This document shows positions 3,485-21,712 of a DNA stretch of 64,000 nt, piece by piece. Source of the stretch: Bradyrhizobium sp. 132 (GTDB lineage Bacteria; Pseudomonadota; Alphaproteobacteria; Rhizobiales; Xanthobacteraceae); contig NZ_JADPKY010000103.1 in NCBI RefSeq assembly GCF_023074185.1, positions 62,001 through 126,000 on the forward strand. Reading direction: 5' to 3'. How positions within the stretch are numbered: the stretch's first letter is position 1; the number at the start of each line of letters is the position of its first letter. The notes beneath the pieces were generated by a model that was not told where the DNA came from, did no database searches, and saw only the letters and a list, made by a program, of their open reading frames with translations. Position numbers and translations under genes: made by a program.

Positions 3485-3626
3485 TCTCCGGGCACAGCCC
3501 GTCGGCGGTCGTCCCATGCAAATTCGAACGGCTGCCATTCCACGGGAATAGAGCCCGACGGCGTGCCACACAGGTTGACGTCTGCCCCGTCAGCCAGTTG
3601 GATGCGCGCGCAAACAGGGGCTTCTC

Positions 3627-4931
3627 ATGACTTTTTCCAGCATCTTTGCGCAGTTCGTTGCGCTCCTCGGTGGCATCGCGCTGCAATGGCGGAAGCTGTC
3701 GGGCACCGTGCCCGCGCCGGCCTGGGGTCAGTCGCCCGCCATTCCCCAAGCAAAGCCGCAAGGCGCCATCCCGACATTGAAGATGCCGACGGCGCGCGGC
3801 TGGAGCGAGGGACAGAAGCCGACGGTCGCTCCCGGGCTCAAGGTCAATGCGTTCGCGACCGGCCTCGACCATCCGCGCTGGATCGAAGTGCTGCCCAATG
3901 GCGACGTGCTGATTGCGGAAGCGACGCAGATCGCGGGCGCGCCGAGGTCGGTGTTTCATTACGCGATGCAGGCGACGATGCGGCGCGCCGCCGCGCTCGG
4001 CGTCAGCGCCAACCGCATCACGCTGCTGCGCGACAAGGACGGCGACGGCGTCGCGGATTATCGCGGCGCGTTCATGGAGAACCTCAGCCAGCCGTTCGGC
4101 ATGGCGCTGGTCGGCGACACCTTCTATGTCGGCAACACCGATGGCGTGATGGCCTTCCCGTACGTGGCGAACGCCGACCGCATCACCGCGCCGGGCAAGC
4201 GCCTCACCACATTCAAGCCGAACGGCCACTGGACGCGCAGCCTGCTGGCAAGCCCCGACGGCAAGAAGCTTTATGCCGGCGTCGGCTCGCTCAGCAACAT
4301 CGCCGAGATGGGCATGGAGGTCGAGCAAGGCCGCGCCGGGGTCTACGAGCTCGATCTCGTCGCCGGGACGCACCGCATCTTCGGTGCCGGCCTGCGCAAT
4401 CCGGTCGGATTGGCCTGGGAGCCAAACACGAACGTGCTCTGGACCGTCGTCAACGAGCGCGACGGCCTCGGCGACGAGACGCCGCCGGACTATCTGACCT
4501 CGGTGCGCGACGGCGGCTTCTACGGCTGGCCCTATTGCTACTGGGGCAAGACGGTGGACGATCGCGTGCCGCAGGATCCGACGCTGGTCGCCAAGGCGCT
4601 CACGCCGGACTATGCGCTCGGCGGACACACCGCTTCGCTCGGCCTGTGCTGGATGCCGGCGGGTACACTGCCCGGCTTCCCGGACGGCATGGCGATCGGC
4701 CAGCACGGCTCGTGGAATCGCAGCAAGCTGTCCGGCTACAAACTGGTGTTCATCCCGTTCGAGAACGGAAAGCCCTCCGGTCCCGGTCGCGACATCCTGT
4801 CGGGCTTCCTGGCCCCGGACGAGAAGGAATCCTACGGCCGCCCGGTTGGCGTCGTGATTGGCCCCGATAAGAAGTCGCTGCTGATGGCCGACGACGTCGG
4901 CAACGTGATCTGGCGCGTGACGGGCGCGTGA
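3627..4931 (+). CDS. PQQ-dependent sugar dehydrogenase (sorbosone dehydrogenase family)
   Basis: 434 residues with an N-terminal hydrophobic stretch, probably a signal peptide or anchor, and a six-bladed propeller fold typical of soluble glucose/L-sorbosone dehydrogenases. Blade motifs seen include GLDHPRWIEVLPNGDVLIAE (about 77-96), the calcium-like DKDGDGVADY, the conserved GLRNPVGLAW and the C-terminal LLMADDVGNVIWRV. Family members oxidise sugars or aldoses in the periplasm with PQQ. No PQQ genes are in the window. It converges on the aspartate dehydrogenase gene with a 3-base gap. The precise substrate cannot be told. Confidence 0.85.
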   Translation: MTFSSIFAQFVALLGGIALQWRKLSGTVPAPAWGQSPAIPQAKPQGAIPTLKMPTARGWSEGQKPTVAPGLKVNAFATGLDHPRWIEVLPNGDVLIAEATQIAGAPRSVFHYAMQATMRRAAALGVSANRITLLRDKDGDGVADYRGAFMENLSQPFGMALVGDTFYVGNTDGVMAFPYVANADRITAPGKRLTTFKPNGHWTRSLLASPDGKKLYAGVGSLSNIAEMGMEVEQGRAGVYELDLVAGTHRIFGAGLRNPVGLAWEPNTNVLWTVVNERDGLGDETPPDYLTSVRDGGFYGWPYCYWGKTVDDRVPQDPTLVAKALTPDYALGGHTASLGLCWMPAGTLPGFPDGMAIGQHGSWNRSKLSGYKLVFIPFENGKPSGPGRDILSGFLAPDEKESYGRPVGVVIGPDKKSLLMADDVGNVIWRVTGA

Positions 4932-13000: not shown

Positions 13001-13758
13001 ACTACCGGGCCGTCCGCGCCATCTATCTGTTCGAAATGGCGCGCACCTGGCGCACGCTGCTGCAAAGCATCGTCTCTCCGGTGGTCTCGACCTCGCTGTA
13101 TTTCGTGGTGTTCGGCGCCGCGATCGGCTCGCGCATCAGCCAGGTCGAGGGCGTCAGCTACGGCACCTTCATCGTGCCGGGCCTGATCATGCTCTCGGTG
13201 CTGACGCAGAGCATCGCCAACGCCTCGTTCGGCATCTACTTCCCGAAATTCACCGGCACGATCTACGAGATCCTGTCGGCGCCGATCTCCTATTTCGAGA
13301 TCGTGCTCGGCTATGTCGGCGCGGCCGCGACCAAGTCGATCATCCTCGGCCTGATCATCCTCGCCACGGCCGGCCTGTTCGTGCCGCTGCACATCCATCA
13401 TCCGGTCTGGATGCTGGCCTTCCTGGTGCTGACGGCGGTGACGTTCAGCCTGTTCGGTTTCATCATCGGCATCTGGGCCGACGGCTTCGAAAAGCTGCAG
13501 ATGATCCCGATGCTGGTGGTGACGCCGCTGACCTTCCTCGGCGGCAGCTTCTATTCCATCGACATGCTGCCGTCCGCCTGGCGCACGGTGGCGCTGCTCA
13601 ATCCGGTCGTTTATCTGATCTCCGGCTTCCGCTGGAGCTTTTACGAGATCGCCGATGTCAGCGTGTCTGTCAGCGTCGGCATGACGACGGCGTTCCTGAT
13701 GATCTGCCTGGTCCTGATCTGGTGGATTTTCCGGACGGGATATCGGTTGAAGAATTGA
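12997..13758 (+). CDS. ABC-2 type transporter permease
   Basis: 253 residues with six hydrophobic helices and the ABC-2 signature region: [21 protein letters not shown], then the conserved [16 protein letters not shown] and the AVVYLI-like [12 protein letters not shown]. It is the membrane partner of the ATPase at 12077 and resembles YadH. ABC-2 permeases export drugs, polysaccharides or lipids. The stop is 46 bases from the end of a convergent gene. Substrate unknown. Confidence 0.92.
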
Positions 13759-13804
13759 CCCTGGCCGTCATTCCGGGGCGCGCGCGCCTCGGAATTGCCA
13801 GCGG

Positions 13805-14128
13805 CTACCGATAGCAGTGGAAGCGGTGGTACCCGTCGTAATAGCCGCGGCAGCGTCGATGGCCGCGATGGGGAATGCCGAACACACCCTCGACCGCGCC
13901 AACGGCACCGCCGACACCGGCGCCGACGACGCCTCCGACTGCACCGCCCACCGGGCCGGCAATACGATTGCCTTCATAGGAGCCTTCCTGGGCGCCGCGC
14001 ACGATACCCTGGGCGTGGCCAGCTTGCGGCAGCGACAATAGCGCGAGGAGGATGGCGGCGGCTGCGAGCAGCAGGCGGAGGGGCAGACCCGCCGGCAATG
14101 ACGCGGCGGCGATGCGGGCTTTGTTCAT
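13805..14128 (-). CDS. Glycine-zipper secreted small protein
   Basis: 107 residues: a long signal peptide (LPLRLLLAAAAILLALLSLP, then AGHA-Q), a central glycine zipper (GPVGGAVGGVVGAGVGGAVGAVEGVFG) and a His/Arg/Tyr-rich tail (HRGHRRCRGYYDGYHRFHCYR). Proteins of this shape are common in bradyrhizobia and presumably insert in or span a membrane. Function unknown. In-frame sequence upstream of ATG 14128 has no coding character and was left out. Confidence 0.7.
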   Translation of the reverse strand: MNKARIAAASLPAGLPLRLLLAAAAILLALLSLPQAGHAQGIVRGAQEGSYEGNRIAGPVGGAVGGVVGAGVGGAVGAVEGVFGIPHRGHRRCRGYYDGYHRFHCYR

Positions 14129-14443
14129 CTTCAATCCCAAGGAAAATATAAAGGGTAACGGCGGCGGGCGCCGCCAGTCGAGCGTGGCCACAGTCAACGC
14201 ACCGAGCGGCCAAATGGTTGCGCCATTGTGACGAATTGTCGGCGTTGTGAACGCATCCCCGCTCGCGAAAATGTCAGCACCGCCGCTGGCTTTGCGGCAC
14301 AAAGCGGCCTTGCTTACGCCGGGCGTCCCGTTAACGATGGGCGAGGCAGGCCGCTGGAACGAAAGCCGGATTGCAGGCATAGTGCACGCCGGGGACGGAG
14401 AGCCGCGGCGCCTAGCGTGAACAGGCCGGAGGCCAGAAGTCAG
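14129..14443. other. Divergent intergenic region, no gene seen
   Basis: About 315 bases between the glycine-zipper gene and the L,D-transpeptidase gene. It holds the promoters of both by necessity. A GC hairpin (GGCGGC / GCCGCC, 14160-14175) lies in the leader of the minus-strand gene. No recognised operator or RNA was found. Confidence 0.5.
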
Positions 14444-15226
14444 ATGCGTTCGTTTTTTATTGTTTTCACCTCGCTGATGCTTTTGACCGCGGGCACCGCG
14501 CAAGCCAAGGTCGAGATCACCATCGACAAGGACAATCAGCAGATGACCGTCGCCGTCGACGGCGTCGCCCGCTACCACTGGCCGGTGTCGACAGGCATCC
14601 CCTCGCGCGAGACGCCAAACGGCGCGTTCCGCACCTTCCGCATGGAAGAGGATCACTACTCCAAGGAATTCGACGACGCGCCGATGCCGCACGCGATCTT
14701 CTTCACCAAGGTCGGGCATGCCATCCACGGCACGGACTCGGTCGGCCGGCTCGGCTCGCCCGCCTCCCACGGCTGCGTACGGCTGTCGCGCCAGAATGCC
14801 ACGACGCTCTACGCGCTGGTGCAGCAGCAGGGCGTGCTCAACACAACGGTGACGCTGACAGGATCGGCGCAGGTGGCGCTTGCGCGCAATCCGCGCGGCC
14901 GCAACCCCACAGCGGTGGCCCGCGCGCCGCAACCCGCCGAAGAGCAGTACGCCACATCAGGCGATCCCGTGAACCTGACGCCGCCGGCCGCACCCGCCCG
15001 CCGCTACATGCCGCAGGACGACAATTACATCTATCCCGCCGACGGCAGCGACAACGGCGCGCGCTATCCCGCGCCGCGCGCGACGAGCCGCCCGCTCTAC
15101 GACGCGCAGGTCTATCAGCAACAGCCGCAGCAATACTACAATCAGGGCAACGGCCAGCAGGGCAACTACTACCAGCCGCAGCCCCGGCAGGTTTATCAGC
15201 CGCGCGGCTATTACTATCAGAACTGA
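14444..15226 (+). CDS. L,D-transpeptidase (YkuD domain) with Gln/Tyr-rich tail
   Basis: 260 residues with a signal peptide (FFIVFTSLMLLTAGTAQA-K) and a YkuD domain (about 22-140). The active-site motif is complete: HGTDSVGRLGSPASHGCVRL, with the His and the Cys nucleophile. Such enzymes make 3-3 cross-links in peptidoglycan or attach proteins to it in the periplasm. The second half (about 150-260) is low-complexity, rich in Pro, Gln, Asn and Tyr, ending in repeated YYQ-like blocks. It has no catalytic motif and may be a wall or surface contact. ATG 14444 has GGAGG about 15 bases upstream. It converges on the M28 gene with a 2-base gap. Confidence 0.9.
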   Translation: MRSFFIVFTSLMLLTAGTAQAKVEITIDKDNQQMTVAVDGVARYHWPVSTGIPSRETPNGAFRTFRMEEDHYSKEFDDAPMPHAIFFTKVGHAIHGTDSVGRLGSPASHGCVRLSRQNATTLYALVQQQGVLNTTVTLTGSAQVALARNPRGRNPTAVARAPQPAEEQYATSGDPVNLTPPAAPARRYMPQDDNYIYPADGSDNGARYPAPRATSRPLYDAQVYQQQPQQYYNQGNGQQGNYYQPQPRQVYQPRGYYYQN

Positions 15227-15228
15227 CG

Positions 15229-15999
15229 TTATCTGAACGCGGCGTTGCCGCGCTCGACGATTTTTCGCGCAGCTTGGACGAAGGCACGGGCGACCGGCTC
15301 GAGGAGCTCGGGCCCGGTCGCGGGGAGATCGTCCGACGGCGTGTGGAAAGTCCGATGGCGGCCGGCCATGCCGAGGAAATTGGCGTAGCCCGCCGCATGC
15401 ACATCGCGCAGTTCGCCGACCGCCTGCTTCTCCGTCACCAGCCGTTTTGCATCGACCTTGGCGAAGGCTTCGTCAGTCAGCGCGACGGCGGATTTGCTCA
15501 GCACGAGATAACGCTCCTCCTCAGGCCGATCGGTGCGGGCGCCCTCCGCGAAGGCGTAGCAGGCGTTCGATGAGCCGAAGTGAATCCACGCCAGTGTTTC
15601 CTTCGGCGCGGGCGCTCCGTTCTTCAGGAACAGCTCCATGCCGCCATGGCCGATCTCATGGCCGATCTCATGGCCGGCGGTCGCGATGAAGACGACATGC
15701 GCCGGCCATTTTTCGGCAGCGACCGTGCGCGCCAGCGCAAGGAAGTTGGCAATGCCGGGGCCACGTTCGCACACGCAGCCAAGCACGACGGGCTGGGATC
15801 TGACCTCGAATCCGGCGGCCTTGAGCTCAGCGGCGATCCACTCGCCGGTGGCGCGATCGCCGGGCGAACCGAACCGGTGCAGACCGAAGGACGCATAACG
15901 CGTCACGTCTTCATAGAGGCTCGCACCCGAAAGCACATCCTTGGCTGCCGCCTGCCCGGCCATAAGAACCGCCATGATCGCGATGAACATATGCCGCAT
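15229..15999 (-). CDS. M28-family peptidase-like protein, probably internally shortened
   Basis: 256 residues with a signal peptide (FIAIMAVLMAGQAAA). The part that can be recognised is the catalytic Glu region (IATAGHEIGHEIGHGGMELF, about 106-125) and a downstream FHTPSDDLP His motif. The first zinc ligands (a His-x-Asp and a bridging Asp) that should come between the N-terminal domain and the Glu are not present: VVLG runs straight into CVCERGPGIANFLALAR. I recall related proteins well over 350 residues, so an in-frame deletion is likely. A 12-base tandem duplication doubles HEIG. It may be inactive or only a binding protein. Confidence 0.65.
   Translation of the reverse strand: MRHMFIAIMAVLMAGQAAAKDVLSGASLYEDVTRYASFGLHRFGSPGDRATGEWIAAELKAAGFEVRSQPVVLGCVCERGPGIANFLALARTVAAEKWPAHVVFIATAGHEIGHEIGHGGMELFLKNGAPAPKETLAWIHFGSSNACYAFAEGARTDRPEEERYLVLSKSAVALTDEAFAKVDAKRLVTEKQAVGELRDVHAAGYANFLGMAGRHRTFHTPSDDLPATGPELLEPVARAFVQAARKIVERGNAAFR
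15645..15676. repeat. 12-bp in-frame tandem repeat inside the M28 gene
   Basis: CATGGCCGATCT occurs twice in tandem (15645-15656 and 15657-15668) and then partly again (CATGGCCG). On the coding strand it duplicates four residues (HEIG) exactly at the catalytic Glu site. Confidence 0.85.
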
Positions 16000-16314: not shown

Positions 16315-16569
16315 ATGACACGCGAGCAGATTTCGGATTTCTGCGTTACCGCCCTGGCGAATATCCTGCGAATTTCGAGGGACCGAGTTGACATCGGCAC
16401 AAAATTCAATCGTCTCGGCCTCGATTCGGCGATGTTGGTCTACCTGATGATGGAACTCGAGGAGAAGCTCGACCTCGAACTGTCGACGGACGACTTTTAC
16501 GACCATCCGACCGTTGAGGCCTTGTCGCGATTTCTCGCTGACAAGCGTGCAATCCGCCCCGCCGCCTGA
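16315..16569 (+). CDS. Stand-alone acyl carrier protein
   Basis: 84 residues with the phosphopantetheine attachment site LGLDSAM (Ser38) followed by an acidic helix (MELEEKLDLELSTDDFYDHP). Carrier proteins hold acyl groups as thioesters on this Ser arm. The fatty-acyl-AMP ligase gene starts 26 bases downstream on the same strand, so the ligase probably loads this carrier. An upstream TTG (16297) is possible, but ATG 16315 gives the usual ACP length. In a Dlt comparison this would be the DltC counterpart. Its sequence is unlike housekeeping AcpP (no GADSLD motif), which suggests a dedicated role. Confidence 0.9.
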   Translation: MTREQISDFCVTALANILRISRDRVDIGTKFNRLGLDSAMLVYLMMELEEKLDLELSTDDFYDHPTVEALSRFLADKRAIRPAA

Positions 16570-16570
16570 G

Positions 16571-16586
16571 GGCGGCTGAAGCCGCC
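16571..16586. other. Small hairpin between ACP and ligase genes
   Basis: GGCGGC-TGAA-GCCGCC starts two bases after the ACP stop codon and ends nine bases before the ligase start. There is no T-run, so it is more likely a processing or stability element that sets the ACP-to-ligase ratio than a terminator. Role is inference. Confidence 0.45.
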
Positions 16587-16595
16587 GCAATCCAC

Positions 16596-18296
16596 ATGGA
16601 AACCTTCCGCTCGCTGGTGGCACTGCTGGCCCGGCGTGCGGCGGAGCAGGCCGACGACCGTGCCTATGTCTTCGTCTCCGATCGCGGGACGGAGGAAGCT
16701 GTGCTCACCTTCCGCCAGCTGCATGACTCCGCATCTACGCTTGCGTCGCGCCTGACCGCGGCCGCACGGCCCGGCGACCGCGCCATCCTGGTGTTTCCGC
16801 CGGGCATCGAATTCATGGTGGCGTTCTTCGGCTGCCTGATGGCCGGCATCATCGCCGTGCCGATGATGATGCCGCGGCGAAACAGCGCGCGCGATGCCAG
16901 CGCCGCCATCCTCGCCAATTGCACGCCGGCGCTGGCGCTGACCAATTCGGCCGTCGCGCTCCGTGGTGAACTGAGAGCACGCTTCGCGCAGGAGAACATT
17001 CGCTGGATCGAGGCCGATCTCGCCGTGGCCGACGGTGAGACATTCGAACTTCCCGAGCCGGCGCCTGACGACACCGCCTTCCTGCAATATACCTCCGGCT
17101 CTACCTCCGAGCCCAAAGGCGTGATGGTGAGCCATGCCAATCTGCTCGCCAATCTCGAGATGATCCGGATCGCGCTCGGCAACACCCGGCAATCGACTTA
17201 CGTCAATTGGGTGCCGCTCTATCACGACATGGGGCTGATCCTGAACGCGCTGCAAGCACTCTATGTCGGCGCGACCTGCGTGCTGATGGCGCCGAACGCG
17301 TTCATGCAGCGGCCGCTCGGCTGGCTGCGCGCGATCTCGCACTATCGCGCGGAAGTCGCGTGCAGCCCGAACTTCGGCTTCGACCTCTGCGTCAACCGCT
17401 TCCGCGCCGATCAGATGGAGGGCATCGACCTGTCCTCGCTCAGGATCGCGCTGAACGGCGCAGAGCCGGTGCATGCGGGAACCATCGAACGGTTCATCCA
17501 GACATTCGCGCCGCACGGCTTCGATCCGCGCGCGATGTATCCCGCCTACGGCATGGCGGAAGCGACGCTCCTGATTTCCGGCGGACACCGCGGCGACGGT
17601 CATGTCACACGCAGCGTGAGCCGCACGGCGCTTCAGGCGCACGCGGCGGAGACGCCTTCCGATGCGGAAGACACGCAAGCCGCCGTCGGCTGCGGGCGCG
17701 CACTCACCGGCGAGCGGATCGCCATCGTGGACGCGGACGACCGCACACGCCTGCCCGCCGACCGCGTCGGTGAGATATGGGTGAATGGCGCCAATATTGC
17801 CCGCGCCTATTGGCGCAACGACGAGGCGACGCGCGAGGGGCTCAATGCGCAGATTGCCGGCGAAGGCGGGCCGTGGCTGCGCACAGGCGACCTCGGCTTC
17901 GTCGACGTCACAGGCGAACTGTTCGTCACGGGTCGGATCAAGGACCTCATCATCATCCGCGGCATCAACCATTATCCGCAGGACGTCGAGCGCACCGTGC
18001 AATCGCTCGACGGAGCTTTGCGCGAAAACTGCGGCGCGGCGTTCTCGGTGCAGGACGAGAGCGGCGAAGAGACGCTCGTCATCGTCCAGGAGATCGAGCG
18101 CACCGCGCGCCACTCGATCGACACCGATGCGATCAAGGGCCTGGTCCGCGAGGCTGTCGCCGACCACCACGAGCTCTCCGCGCGCCACATCGCGCTGATC
18201 CGTCCCGGCGCGCTGCCGAAGACCACCAGCGGCAAGATCCAGCGCAAGCTGGCGCGCAGGCTCTGGCTCGACGGTGGCTTCGAGGGGATCGGCTGA
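16596..18296 (+). CDS. Fatty-acyl-AMP ligase (FAAL, FadD32/DIP2-like)
   Basis: 566 residues of the adenylate-forming superfamily. The ATP loop is YTSGSTSEPKG (165-175). WVPLYHDMGLI, RTGDLGF and GRIKDLIIIRGINHYPQDVE are the pattern of fatty-acyl-AMP ligases rather than acyl-CoA ligases. The C-terminal Lys is in PKTTSGKIQRK. These enzymes activate a fatty acid with ATP and hand it to a carrier protein. The ACP gene directly upstream is the obvious partner. No polyketide synthase or peptide synthetase gene is nearby, which is where FAALs usually occur, so the acyl-ACP probably feeds the MBOAT system encoded just beyond on the other strand. Confidence 0.9.
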   Translation: METFRSLVALLARRAAEQADDRAYVFVSDRGTEEAVLTFRQLHDSASTLASRLTAAARPGDRAILVFPPGIEFMVAFFGCLMAGIIAVPMMMPRRNSARDASAAILANCTPALALTNSAVALRGELRARFAQENIRWIEADLAVADGETFELPEPAPDDTAFLQYTSGSTSEPKGVMVSHANLLANLEMIRIALGNTRQSTYVNWVPLYHDMGLILNALQALYVGATCVLMAPNAFMQRPLGWLRAISHYRAEVACSPNFGFDLCVNRFRADQMEGIDLSSLRIALNGAEPVHAGTIERFIQTFAPHGFDPRAMYPAYGMAEATLLISGGHRGDGHVTRSVSRTALQAHAAETPSDAEDTQAAVGCGRALTGERIAIVDADDRTRLPADRVGEIWVNGANIARAYWRNDEATREGLNAQIAGEGGPWLRTGDLGFVDVTGELFVTGRIKDLIIIRGINHYPQDVERTVQSLDGALRENCGAAFSVQDESGEETLVIVQEIERTARHSIDTDAIKGLVREAVADHHELSARHIALIRPGALPKTTSGKIQRKLARRLWLDGGFEGIG

Positions 18297-18302
18297 GCCG
18301 GC

Positions 18303-19316
18303 TCAGAAATCGATCTTCGCACCCTCCCCGTCGCGCAGGCTCGCTGCGATTCCCTGCTCGAGCTTACGCGCGTGGATTGCGCGGTAGTGGATGAAGTCGG
18401 CAAAATTGGAGCGGTCGCGCGTGAGATCGTTGTCGACGCGATAGCTGATGAAATTGCTGCGCGGCCGGCCCGCGACCACCTGTTTCAGCGCGGCGTCGCA
18501 GGCGCTGCGCTCCAGGGCGGTTTCTGTCCCGGGCTTCGGCACCGTGGTTGCGAGGGTCGGCGGCACGATGATCACGACGGGCACATCGGCCGGCAATGTC
18601 CTGACGGTATGTGCCAGCACAGCGATCTCGGGAAATGTCGCCCGCATCTTGGCGGACAAGGACGGCGCCGGATCCCTGGGCCAGCCGACTTCCTTGAATT
18701 GGCCCGGCGGCCAGATATCCTCGTAGCTGACAAAGCCGTCGGGGTTCATCCGTGGTCGCCGGCCGAGCCCGATACTGATCCGTTGAAAAGCCTGCTCGAT
18801 CGCCTGCCAGGAGATCAGACGGGCAGCGTAAGTGACGACGCTTCTGTCATAGAGCCAGTCGGGAAACGGGACGCCGCCCACCTCCTTCGCCCGCGCATGC
18901 TCGCACCAGCCGGGGTCGGCCACGATCACCAGTGCGCCGACCTCCCGGTGATTGCGGAGGAAGAACTCCAGCACCGCAAGCTCCTGGCGGGGAAACGCGC
19001 CGGTCATGTAGAGCTGCACGAATCGCAGGCCGGTCGCACGCGACAATTCCGTCGGCTCGATCATCTGCGCTGTCGAATTGCCCAGGATCGCAGCATTGAA
19101 ATCCGGATTCCTGGCGCGGCTCGCGGCCGTGATTTGGGTGAGCCGATTGTCGACGCCGTCGATGCCGAGCAGGCCGAGCTTGCCGCTGTCATAGGGATCG
19201 ACCGCCACCATCAGTGCGAGCACCAGCAGCGCAGCGCCGATCAGCGTGCCCAGGCACGCGAGCAGGCTCCGGCCCCAGCCGGGGTCGGTCTCAGAACTTG
19301 AAGTAGACGAAGTCAT
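18303..19316 (-). CDS. Membrane-anchored SGNH-like protein (DltD/AlgJ-like)
   Basis: 337 residues: one N-terminal membrane helix (about 17-39), then a periplasmic domain with a Ser in LGNSTAQ (Ser81) and a C-terminal DFIHY (Asp307, His310). This is the Ser...DxxH arrangement of SGNH esterase-like proteins such as DltD, AlgJ and AlgX. The start overlaps the end of the MBOAT gene by 26 bases, so translation is coupled. In Dlt and alginate systems the SGNH partner works with the MBOAT protein in acyl transfer to a polymer outside the membrane. Acceptor unknown. Confidence 0.75.
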   Translation of the reverse strand: MTSSTSSSETDPGWGRSLLACLGTLIGAALLVLALMVAVDPYDSGKLGLLGIDGVDNRLTQITAASRARNPDFNAAILGNSTAQMIEPTELSRATGLRFVQLYMTGAFPRQELAVLEFFLRNHREVGALVIVADPGWCEHARAKEVGGVPFPDWLYDRSVVTYAARLISWQAIEQAFQRISIGLGRRPRMNPDGFVSYEDIWPPGQFKEVGWPRDPAPSLSAKMRATFPEIAVLAHTVRTLPADVPVVIIVPPTLATTVPKPGTETALERSACDAALKQVVAGRPRSNFISYRVDNDLTRDRSNFADFIHYRAIHARKLEQGIAASLRDGEGAKIDF

Positions 19317-20673
19317 GGAGATCCCGACCACCCATGTGGAGCAGCAATGCGAATAGCCCAAGACCGAGCAGACCCGCGAGCCACGGATTGGGACGGCGCG
19401 TGAGCACCGCCACGATGTCCTGGCTCGCCGGCAGCAGGAAGGCGAAGAGCGGCGCTGCAATCAGCGGCCACAAATGCTTTCCGCGCGCGAGCGGCAGCGG
19501 CGAAACCAGTCCGGCAAAGACATGCCAGGCCGCTTCCACCGATCCCGCACGGAAGATCACGCCGGTCGCGAGCACGAACAGCACGGTAAGCGCCCAGCCG
19601 AGCGATGACGGCAAATCCGGGCCATAGCGGCGCCACAGCGTGCAGGCGACCAGCGCAAGCCCGTGCAGCACGCCCCACAGCACGAAGGTCCAACTCGCGC
19701 CGTGCCAGAGGCCGCACAGCGCCATAGTGATCATCATCGCGGCGAAAAACTGGACGGGAAGCCAGCGCCGCGGCAGCAGGCGCAGATTGACCAGCGGATA
19801 GAACACGTAATCGCGCAGGAACAGCATCAGGGTGATGTGCCAGCGCTGCCAGAAATCCTGGATGTTGGTCGAGCGCAGCGGCGCATTGAAATTGTACGGC
19901 AGCTGCACGCCGAACAGCAGGCCAAGGCCGATCGCGATGTCGGAATAGCCGGAGAAATCGAACAGGATCTGGAAGGAGAAGCAGAAGGCGAGCCAGGCAT
20001 CGCCGCTCGGGAGCGGCCCGTTCGCTGCCTGGGTGTAGATGGGATCGAGCAGATGCGCGATGCCGTCGGCGATCACGACTTTCTCGAACAGGCCGATCGC
20101 AATGAAGCAGGTCGCGACGCAGAACTGACGCTGCCAGCCCGGCACGTAGACCTGCCTGCCGAACTGATGCATCACCTCCGACCAGCGCGCCAGGGGGCCG
20201 GCGATCGCCTGCGGGAAGAAGGCGATGTAGAGCGCGTAGCGGTCGAGCGCATAGAGCGGCGCCCTGCCGCGCTTCAGATCGACCAGATACATGATGTGGT
20301 GGAAGGTGAAGAAGGAGATGCCGAGCGGCAGCCCGATGTCGAGCGCCGGCAGCGTCATACCGAGCACGAGGCCGAGATTGGCGAGAAGGAAGTTGGCGTA
20401 TTTGAACAGCGCCAGCACCGCGAGATCGAGCACGATCACGAGCGTCAGCAGCGTCGGCCACTTCACGCGCCCATAGGCGACCGAGGCAAGCCAATTGATC
20501 GCGATCGAGCCGATCAGGAGCAGGATGAAGGACGGGCTGCCCCAGGCATAGAAGGCGAGCGACAGCGCGACCTGCACGCCGATGCGCAAATGCGGATAGG
20601 GATCGGCCAGGCGGTAGGTCAGCAGCGCCGCCGGCAGGAAGACCAAGAGAAAGGGATAGTCGTTGAACAGCAT
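19291..20673 (-). CDS. MBOAT-family O-acyltransferase (AlgI/DltB-like)
   Basis: 460 residues with about ten or more membrane helices. The MBOAT signature is intact: FWQRWHITLMLFLRDYVFYPL (about 274-294) and the catalytic His324 in GLWHGASWTF, followed by WGVLHG. The fold passes an acyl group from a cytoplasmic donor through the membrane to an outside acceptor. AlgI uses acetyl, and DltB uses D-alanyl on a carrier protein. The overlapping SGNH gene, the nearby ACP and FAAL, and the desaturase upstream on the same strand (46 bases away) suggest that the donor here is a fatty acyl-ACP. No alginate or other polysaccharide synthase gene is adjacent. Confidence 0.9.
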   Translation of the reverse strand: MLFNDYPFLLVFLPAALLTYRLADPYPHLRIGVQVALSLAFYAWGSPSFILLLIGSIAINWLASVAYGRVKWPTLLTLVIVLDLAVLALFKYANFLLANLGLVLGMTLPALDIGLPLGISFFTFHHIMYLVDLKRGRAPLYALDRYALYIAFFPQAIAGPLARWSEVMHQFGRQVYVPGWQRQFCVATCFIAIGLFEKVVIADGIAHLLDPIYTQAANGPLPSGDAWLAFCFSFQILFDFSGYSDIAIGLGLLFGVQLPYNFNAPLRSTNIQDFWQRWHITLMLFLRDYVFYPLVNLRLLPRRWLPVQFFAAMMITMALCGLWHGASWTFVLWGVLHGLALVACTLWRRYGPDLPSSLGWALTVLFVLATGVIFRAGSVEAAWHVFAGLVSPLPLARGKHLWPLIAAPLFAFLLPASQDIVAVLTRRPNPWLAGLLGLGLFALLLHMGGRDLHDFVYFKF

Positions 20674-20719
20674 CGGTTCAAAGCTGAGCCATCGCCGGCG
20701 TTGCGCCGGCCGATGATGC

Positions 20720-21712
20720 TCAGCCCGTTTCCAGGTCGGGCGTCGCCTCGCCCGGCTGCCGCGACATGCGCCGGGCGATCTTCTCCTCGCTGGGCACCTT
20801 GACGTCCCAGGCTAGTCCGAGCGCTTCCAGTGCGCGGATGAAGATAAAGCCGGGATCGAACTCGAACCAGCGCAGGCCGAAGGCCGCGGAATACGGAAAG
20901 GCATGGTGATTGTTGTGCCAGCCCTCGCCCCAGGCGAGCCAGGCCATCACGCCGAGATTCCTGCTGCTGTCGTCACGGGTGACGAAGGGCTGCGCGCCAA
21001 AGCTGTGCATGACGGAGTTGATGGCGGACATGGTCTGCTCGACCACGAACATGCGCACCACGCCGCCCCAGAGCAAGCCGGTCAGCGCGCCCCACAGGCT
21101 CATGGTGGCAAGGCCGCCGATCGCGGCCGGCAGCACCAAGCCGAGACCGACCCAAGTGTAATAGTAGCTGTTGACGGCAACCAGCCTGCGATCCGCCATC
21201 AGATCCGGGACATAGTGCGCGACGTTGGGATAATCGTGCGCGATCATCCAGGTCAGGTGCGCGTGCAGGAAGCCGCGCAGGCGGCCGAACGGGCCGTCGC
21301 CATGCAGCCGCGGCGAATGCAGATCGCCATCGTGATCAGACAATTCATGATGCCGGCGGTGCATTGCCGCCCAGGACAGCATGGGACCGCGGCCTGCCAT
21401 CGATCCCATCACCGTCAGGATCGCGCTCATTGCCGTAGAGGTCGCGAAGGCGCGGTGGGTGAAGAGGCGGTGATAGCCGACGGTGAGGCCGAGGCCGGTG
21501 ACCAGCCAGAAGCCGAAGAACAGGCCGAACTCCATCGCGCCGATCGGGCGGTAGAACAGAAGGGCCAGTGCCACCAGCGTGCCGGCCAAGGGTAAAACGT
21601 CGAAAAGGATGAAATGCCGCCGCTGCATCCGATGAAAATGCCGGCTGCGGATAATGCGGTGATCGCGTTTCTGTTGCACGTCGGGATTCCAGGGCAGCTT
21701 CCATGAGTACAT
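20720..21712 (-). CDS. Fatty-acid desaturase, delta-9 type
   Basis: 330 residues from ATG 21712. It has hydrophobic helices and the three His boxes of membrane di-iron desaturases: HRLFTH (81-86), HRRHH (118-122) and HNNHH (about residue 267). The family puts a cis double bond into acyl-CoA or acyl lipids. A further basic N-terminus extends before the first helix. Its stop is 46 bases upstream of the MBOAT gene, in the same direction, so it probably heads a desaturase-MBOAT-SGNH operon and could set the unsaturation of the transferred acyl chain. It might instead be a general membrane-lipid enzyme. Confidence 0.87.
   Translation of the reverse strand: MYSWKLPWNPDVQQKRDHRIIRSRHFHRMQRRHFILFDVLPLAGTLVALALLFYRPIGAMEFGLFFGFWLVTGLGLTVGYHRLFTHRAFATSTAMSAILTVMGSMAGRGPMLSWAAMHRRHHELSDHDGDLHSPRLHGDGPFGRLRGFLHAHLTWMIAHDYPNVAHYVPDLMADRRLVAVNSYYYTWVGLGLVLPAAIGGLATMSLWGALTGLLWGGVVRMFVVEQTMSAINSVMHSFGAQPFVTRDDSSRNLGVMAWLAWGEGWHNNHHAFPYSAAFGLRWFEFDPGFIFIRALEALGLAWDVKVPSEEKIARRMSRQPGEATPDLETG

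Follow-up and report, generated by a model that had tools for sequence, protein, structure and literature searches.

A putative trans-membrane fatty-acylation cassette with an exchangeable acceptor module in Bradyrhizobium

The stretch of DNA analysed here (the "window") comprises 64,000 nucleotides of Bradyrhizobium sp. 132 (contig NZ_JADPKY010000103.1, positions 62,001 to 126,000), a bacterium with a genome of 8.46 Mb. It harbors a block of five adjacent genes, hereafter the cassette, assigned to an acyl carrier protein (ACP), a fatty-acyl-AMP ligase (FAAL), an SGNH-fold protein, a membrane-bound O-acyltransferase (MBOAT), and a membrane fatty-acid desaturase. The genes and two features of the MBOAT are the following, in window coordinates:

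16315..16569, + strand: stand-alone ACP, 84 residues; PP-binding match at 2.2e-15; Ser38 (codon 16426-16428) in LGLDSAM
16596..18296, + strand: FAAL, 566 residues; AMP-binding match at 2.2e-70; best NCBIfam matches mostly to FAAL models, below their cut-offs
18303..19316, - strand: SGNH-fold protein with an N-terminal helix, 337 residues; Ser81 (19074-19076), Asp307, and His310
19291..20673, - strand: MBOAT acyltransferase, 460 residues; Pfam MBOAT match at 1.5e-19; His279 and the catalytic-type His324 in GLWHGASW
20720..21679, - strand: membrane fatty-acid desaturase; FA_desaturase match at 3.2e-22; likely GTG start at 21679; JamB-like by its place in a FAAL/ACP-associated clade
19702..19815, - strand: MBOAT residues 287-324, an enlarged region at the place of DltB helix HC, without PLGG(S/N)
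19294..19311, - strand: C-terminal FVYFKF of the MBOAT, an FxYxxF shuttle motif with Tyr457, inside the overlap with the SGNH gene

The ACP and FAAL genes form a pair on the + strand, with 26 bases from the ACP stop to the FAAL start, and the desaturase, MBOAT, and SGNH genes lie convergent to them on the - strand. Only 6 bases separate the FAAL and SGNH genes, and a 26-base overlap of the MBOAT and SGNH genes holds the last six MBOAT codons. In the window, the flanking genes follow directly on either side of the cassette. The places and strands proposed for the five genes in a first-pass annotation are confirmed; for the desaturase, alignment with relatives suggests the GTG at 21679 as the start, 11 codons downstream of the ATG at 21712 chosen there. 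That annotation had also noted the absence of polyketide synthases (PKS) and peptide synthetases (NRPS), which holds for the window, as its longest listed open reading frame (ORF) spans 794 residues and such a megasynthase is therefore not encoded in it. Ser38 of the ACP, in the pair Asp37-Ser38, is invariant in 13 aligned rows, as are His324 of the MBOAT and Ser81, Asp307, and His310 of the SGNH protein in 21 rows, the window included. The ratio of nonsynonymous to synonymous substitution rates (dN/dS) ranges from 0.04 to 0.23 for all five genes in the pairs tested. Given these invariant residues, the low dN/dS, and the recurring gene order described below, the gene set is genuine, conserved, and not a chance assembly.

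When GTDB species genomes were scanned with the SGNH protein, 20 loci were retrieved, mostly from genomes named Bradyrhizobium (one is titled Frankia sp. RB7 and another is a Hyphomicrobiales metagenome-assembled genome). All five genes are found in the same order and orientation in 20 of 20, over a range of SGNH identity from 95% down to 59%. Among 146 genomes of the genus, the SGNH profile matches 24, of which 23 carry an intact gene, including that of the window, and one (G291) a broken copy. A FAAL orthologue (E<=1e-120) occurs in 23 of the 146, and these are the same 23; in the remaining genomes, neither an intact SGNH gene nor a FAAL was found among the best candidates scored. The 22 other genomes with both genes were opened, and all display the five cassette genes in one order; 11 of these loci look like loci already in the 20-locus scan, and the two sets are thus not independent. 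Within the genus, the two modules (ACP, FAAL, and desaturase on the one hand, MBOAT and SGNH on the other) are therefore joined in one conserved block, and the initial proposal that the five genes act as one set is upheld there by the coincidence of FAAL and intact SGNH in 23 of 146 genomes. Independent occurrence of the two halves, which had been named as a result that would speak against a common function, was not found in these 146 Bradyrhizobium genomes; outside the genus, the modules do occur apart, as discussed below. In an order-wide sample, an SGNH match is seen in 12 of 199 genomes, 11 of them distant (23-31% identity), and five other members of the genus in that sample gave no SGNH match. 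The broken copy of G291 (L093) is a lone SGNH-like gene with several stops, and the other cassette genes are absent from the 18 kb fetched around it.

Among solved structures, the MBOAT profile is closest to DltB (E 9e-51), the MBOAT of the Dlt system that transfers D-alanyl groups. The DltB equivalog TIGR04091 is the only NCBIfam family matched, at 175.2 bits against a cut-off of 375. The carrier DltC contacts DltB through Met302, Val305, Ile306, Met309, Lys312, and Arg317, according to the available text of PMC11035591. This stretch of DltB reads FMRLVIVLMRNKVFKNR and is located between two conserved histidines, and the corresponding stretch of the cassette MBOATs reads like FYPLVNLRLLPRR. 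A spacing of 45 residues between the two histidines is seen in 22 of 22 cassette MBOATs, as compared to 47 in DltB. In a background set made of the 30 best-scoring MBOATs of a class-wide search, five of which could not be measured by pattern, 24 of the 25 measurable members combine a spacing of 40 with a GG(S/N) motif, and the 25th (L168) has a spacing of 46 and no such motif; the value for L159 is a hand count to the first of two Trp-His. The same spacing of 40 is found in all 8 measurable MBOATs, out of 10, that are paired with an SGNH gene in the order and in the window's own genome, the two unmeasured ones (L022 and L024) showing the same five-column gap in the alignment; one gene is common to both sets (L155 is L026). 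The cassette ACP and FAAL profiles detect nothing in the 30 background loci (~1.5 kb on each side), nor in the 12 loci with a distant SGNH gene, 10 of which hold an MBOAT. The MBOAT thus displays a DltB-like length at the place of carrier docking, which suggests that it may use the ACP.

All 23 cassette MBOATs end with an FxYxxF motif. This motif is also present in 29 of the 30 background MBOATs and is not discriminating when taken alone. It has been described in PatA as the site of an acyl-tyrosine shuttle, a role that a separate protein, DltX, plays in the Dlt system, and non-Dlt pathways are described as carrier-free and fed by acyl-CoA (available text of PMC12148441). Since FxYxxF is fused to the cassette MBOAT, no separate DltX microprotein would be needed, and since carrier genes accompany this tail, the cassette would join the carrier of Dlt to the shuttle of PatA. 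The window's genome carries, on another contig (L026:7709-10251), a second MBOAT-SGNH pair, with an MBOAT that is 38-43% identical and possesses a PLGGNR motif, a 40-residue spacing, and a FIYFRF tail. No FAAL, ACP, or desaturase match lies within the 19 kb fetched around it, and it is by sequence an ordinary carrier-free pair.

The ligase owes its name to its nearest relatives: its best NCBIfam matches are mostly FAAL models (e.g., NF004509, 455 bits for a cut-off of 775), and its closest solved chains are 7r7e-g, labelled polyketide synthase, and then 3kxw, with FadD32 among the next. No DltA model is among the matches listed (25 of 105 NCBIfam families). At E 0.1, the SGNH protein has no counterpart among Pfam or NCBIfam families. 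Its structure model, of mean predicted local distance difference test (pLDDT) 69, aligns with VIA-align to SGNH-fold enzymes including PatB (Z 10.7), with platelet-activating factor (PAF) acetylhydrolases slightly above and Z values nearly tied (11.6 to 10.7); residues 304-311, which include Asp307 and His310, are modelled at a pLDDT below 50. A Foldseek search with this model gives no SGNH match at E<=0.001, and DltD appears at E 0.024. The SGNH fold is therefore supported by the model, no SGNH subfamily being so. Relatives of this protein were found neither in a scan of viral contigs nor, by tblastn, in plasmids.

The kinship of the desaturase illuminates the donor half of the cassette. A search of 72,556 plasmid records returned 59 matches, of which 13 are 38.7-54.5% identical and 46 no more than 35.5%; seven of the former (the six left are all Streptomyces) and six of the latter were opened. 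A FAAL and an ACP lie within ~5 kb of the desaturase in Thalassospira (where the ACP is known by annotation only), Pseudonocardia, Polaromonas, Rhodococcus, Streptomyces goshikiensis, and Tistrella, and none was found in Nonomuraea within the stretch examined. In 398 genomes of the phylum, the desaturase is matched in three, the window's included; FAAL and ACP are present near that of G758 and were not found near that of G928. Altogether, desaturases at least 38.7% identical and outside Bradyrhizobium are accompanied by FAAL and ACP within ~5 kb in seven of nine lineages opened, and none of the six weaker matches opened has a FAAL or ACP beside it. In the desaturase tree, the near group forms one clade of 16 rows (support 97/98), 14 of which are near a FAAL and an ACP. 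The proteins closest to the window's desaturase, outside its own genus, are those of the Rhodococcus and Pseudonocardia triads, and Thalassospira falls in the same starred group of seven. The clade also includes a Streptomyces cluster (L132) with extra desaturases and a rubredoxin, like published polyyne clusters.

Neighbouring FAAL, desaturase, and ACP genes serve as the criterion for the JamABC alkyne cassette in the accessible part of PMC8406139. In that system, JamA loads an acid on JamC and JamB acts on the acid before PKS priming, as described in the sections available of PMC4356899. The cassette has this very gene content, and its desaturase belongs to the FAAL/ACP-associated clade; the ACP, FAAL, and desaturase thus together have the appearance of a single donor unit of the JamABC (alkyne/polyyne) type. 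The desaturase had been viewed at first as an addition to a Dlt-like set of four; its linkage to them stands, but its kin place it with the ACP and FAAL in a JamABC-like triad.

A class-wide search with the FAAL retrieved 7 of 289 genomes, namely the window's, G082, three Tistrella-type genomes with the triad, and two others in which the FAAL is part of a very long open frame. In G082 (L123:8927-10932), a FAAL ~53% identical to the window's is followed by an ACP near the contig end, and searches of the genome with the cassette MBOAT (E<=1e-20) and desaturase (E<=1e-50) returned nothing. The FAAL tree joins the window's FAAL weakly (91/87, not starred) to the Thalassospira, Rhodococcus, and Pseudonocardia triads, and that of G082, with no desaturase beside it, is still closer; this tree was not used as evidence, as the L184 row, with a branch length of 6, is suspect and the rows of L129 and L131 are incomplete. 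The desaturase, ACP, and FAAL of Thalassospira (L128, Alphaproteobacteria), Pseudonocardia (L129), and Rhodococcus (L131, both Actinomycetota) are plasmid-borne, and in the two of these plasmids that are annotated, a methyltransferase, a P450, and an alpha/beta hydrolase stand between ACP and FAAL. This looks like one natural-product cluster shared across phyla.

In contrast to the donor genes, the acceptor module appears to be exchanged between strains. The SGNH proteins of four cassettes (L088, L090, L091, and L092, the B group) are 47-51% identical to that of the window and 76-82% identical among themselves; toward the window, their other proteins display identities of 82-91% (FAAL), 94-98% (ACP), and 86-90% (MBOAT and, likewise, desaturase). 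These four were compared with 13 closely related cassettes of the A type. The groups being defined by SGNH, only the other genes count as a test. Strictly fixed differences number 42 in SGNH, 6 in the MBOAT, and 0 in each of the desaturase, FAAL, and ACP; sites with non-overlapping letters number 9 in the MBOAT, all at residues 399-451 of 460, and none in the three donor proteins. The B cassettes form one clade in the SGNH tree (100/100), a clade that the FAAL data reject (approximately unbiased test, p-AU 0.0013). They keep the usual neighbours, L,D-transpeptidase and spermidine-synthase-like genes in L088, L090, and L092, and a GDPD gene on the visible side of L091. The simplest reading of these sequences is that recombination exchanged the SGNH gene together with the MBOAT tail, without touching the donor genes. 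A joint exchange of the two is what the relay proposed below would predict if the tail has to fit the SGNH protein and if the latter selects the acceptor; it points to where acceptor choice may reside.

Gene content, genus linkage, conserved residues, docking length, shuttle motif, desaturase kinship, and module exchange are probably best accounted for by a five-gene system that transfers a fatty acyl group across the membrane by means of an exchangeable acceptor module. We infer each enzymatic step of this system, as well as the length of the chain, the position and degree of its unsaturation, and the acceptor. The FAAL would activate a free fatty acid with ATP and load it on the phosphopantetheine arm of the ACP, and the membrane desaturase would act on the ACP-tethered chain, as JamB does. 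The acyl-ACP would then dock on the MBOAT at its enlarged cytoplasmic region, and the MBOAT, aided by His324, would move the acyl group to the periplasmic side, onto Tyr457 in its C-terminal FVYFKF. Ser81 of the SGNH protein would take over the acyl group for delivery to a hydroxyl group of an acceptor outside the cytoplasm, most likely a glycan or glycolipid of the cell surface. In this view, the constant donor half would comprise the ACP, the FAAL, and the desaturase together with the larger part of the MBOAT, and the exchangeable acceptor half the SGNH protein with the MBOAT tail. A more specific version, in which a JamABC-type donor and a DltB/PatA-hybrid MBOAT with a strain-swapped acceptor module serve to equip a glycan or glycolipid of the cell surface with a fatty acyl chain that ends in an unsaturated bond, perhaps an alkyne, is put forward tentatively and may well prove too specific.

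Such a cassette shares with Dlt an adenylating enzyme, a carrier protein, an MBOAT, and an SGNH protein, and its docking region is close in length to that of DltB. It differs from Dlt by the fatty-acid type of its ligase, its extra desaturase, and its shuttle tyrosine, which is fused to the MBOAT rather than borne by a separate microprotein (DltX in the available text of PMC12148441). The ACP scores 13.3 bits with the DltC model TIGR01688 (cut-off 52.35) and 17.1 bits with NF003464 (cut-off 68), and the SGNH protein has neither a family match nor a significant resemblance to DltD, as seen above. By these tests, the cassette is Dlt-like in logic and not a member of Dlt. The Dlt-like acylation fed by a fatty acid, as first proposed, is thus retained for its logic and docking length; the DltB and DltC cut-offs, the missing DltD match, and the PatA/AlgI-type tail argue against the Dlt label itself. 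The idea of an envelope-type acylation set fed with fatty acid was right in its core. With PatA-PatB and AlgI-AlgJ/AlgX, the cassette shares, in 23 of 23 cases, the C-terminal FxYxxF of the MBOAT and a separate SGNH protein, the model of which aligns to PatB. Systems of this type are said, in the same available text, to be carrier-free and fed by acyl-CoA, whereas ACP and FAAL genes are present in all 23 cassettes; the carrier-free MBOATs measured here, among which PatA and AlgI do not figure, have a spacing of 40 and GG(S/N), whereas cassette MBOATs have 45 and lack the motif. As compared to JamABC and polyyne clusters, which also combine FAAL, ACP, and membrane desaturase, the cassette comes with an MBOAT-SGNH pair, the window encodes neither PKS nor NRPS, and the block has a single desaturase and is devoid of rubredoxin and thioesterase genes.

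Several observations weigh against the proposed system. Concerning linkage, only the best first-look candidates were scored per genome (9 for FAAL and 14 for SGNH), so that absences are not exhaustive, and in L084 (G274) the match to the desaturase falls in two overlapping frames (3518-4479), possibly by a frameshift or a sequencing error. As for docking, one MBOAT beside an SGNH-like gene (L168/L180, 1074-3629) has a spacing of 46 and no PLGG motif, with no carrier visible on its 4.1-kb contig, and Glu40 of DltC, counted from the phosphopantetheine serine, would correspond to Tyr43 in the window's ACP. The MBOAT structure model (pLDDT 57) is too poor for a fold comparison, and the docking argument consequently rests on sequence. 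The ligase reaches the own cut-off of no FAAL family model of NCBIfam, and two near relatives of the desaturase (L138 and L145) have no FAAL or ACP in the stretch fetched. Regarding module exchange, gapped columns were skipped in the A/B count (57 of 361 in the desaturase), and the whole-MBOAT tree groups the B cassettes (99/99.7); residues 1-395 of the MBOAT do not group them, yet do not reject their clade (p-AU 0.084). The exchange may therefore have reached further into the MBOAT than its tail.

The cassette could also consist of two separate systems that happen to be neighbours, the triad making a fatty acid, unsaturated or alkynyl, that is free to diffuse, and the MBOAT-SGNH pair O-acetylating a polymer from acetyl-CoA, like PatAB or AlgIJX. 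Each half does exist alone: outside the genus, the triad lacks an MBOAT in the stretch fetched (L124, L125, L127-L132, L146), the G758 genome has no MBOAT match at E<=1e-20, three Tistrella-type genomes have theirs on another contig, and MBOAT-SGNH pairs occur with no FAAL, ACP, or desaturase (L015-L017, L019-L022, L024-L026). The MBOAT tail, moreover, is of the PatA type. Such a division seems unlikely in view of the all-or-none linkage in 23 of 23 genomes, of a desaturase placed in one row with the MBOAT and SGNH genes and with no other gene between the cassette and its flanks, and of an MBOAT that lacks PLGG(S/N) and has a DltB-like spacing.

Other explanations retain an acyl transfer and change the molecules involved. 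The acceptor might be a membrane lipid or a secreted small molecule instead of a glycan polymer, the product being then a lipid or a natural product. The known partners of the triad make natural products (accessible parts of PMC8406139 and PMC4356899), and the flanking genes are not polysaccharide genes; against this, the characterised MBOAT-SGNH pairs act on envelope polymers, as far as the available text of PMC12148441 describes them, and the exchange of SGNH with conservation of the donor genes fits variable surface glycans, which makes such an acceptor decidedly unlikely. It is highly improbable that the set attaches a hopanoid to the very-long-chain fatty acid of lipid A (HoLA), with the FAAL activating the hopanoid carboxylate. 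The genes do belong to Bradyrhizobium, and in 2017 no enzyme had yet been assigned to this step; hopanoids, however, occur in all Bradyrhizobium analysed, both points according to the accessible text of PMC5613085, as against the 23 of 146 genomes in which the cassette was found, and the desaturase would have no evident role in hopanoid attachment.

If the more specific version with a terminally unsaturated chain holds, the cassette would be, to our knowledge, the first MBOAT-SGNH system that transfers a fatty acyl group and the first to join a carrier protein to a fused tyrosine shuttle, and it would provide a natural clickable cell surface. Should the trans-membrane fatty-acylation system work as proposed, the acyl-tyrosine relay known for acetyl and D-alanyl groups could also deliver lipid-like chains to molecules that bacteria export. 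A simple candidate marker for other carrier-fed MBOATs is offered by docking-region length. A literature search, with most subscription papers outside its reach, retrieved no paper pairing an MBOAT or DltB with a fatty-acyl-AMP ligase, nor one that treats MBOAT, SGNH, fatty acid, ACP, and polysaccharide together, and one review dealing with MBOAT, SGNH, and long-chain acyl groups describes no such system in its available part. The joining of the two known enzyme modules appears new in the literature searched.

The neighbourhood was compared in 43 loci (L027-L046 and L071-L093). Wherever both sides are visible, and with the exception of L089, the cassette sits between the genes for an L,D-transpeptidase and the spermidine-synthase-like protein; only one side can be seen in L091, the cassette is missing from L093, and the GDPD gene is unmatched in some loci. 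A recent mobile insertion was considered and rejected, as the same genes flank both sides, L089 excepted; the locus is therefore old, kept by some lineages and absent from others. The flanking genes include an ABC transporter, the L,D-transpeptidase, the GDPD, and an FAD-dependent oxidoreductase. Two further neighbours, without a Pfam match at 0.001, are presumably a spermidine-synthase-like and an M28-peptidase-like protein. The gene of the latter (window 15229-15999) encodes 256 residues in the window and 425 in L031, ~170 middle residues being gone, and is unmatched in several relatives' loci, e.g., L072-L074. In L089, a second MBOAT gene with an adjacent gene that we take to be SGNH-like (13730-15990) lies ~2 kb from the cassette, next to an ORF presumed to be phage-terminase-like. 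Extra genes near the cassette in L031, L039, and L035 were set aside, since they lie outside the shared block; from their sequences, we take them to encode a 1,062-residue TPR/CHAT-like protein in the first two and a 285-residue alpha/beta-hydrolase-like protein in L035.

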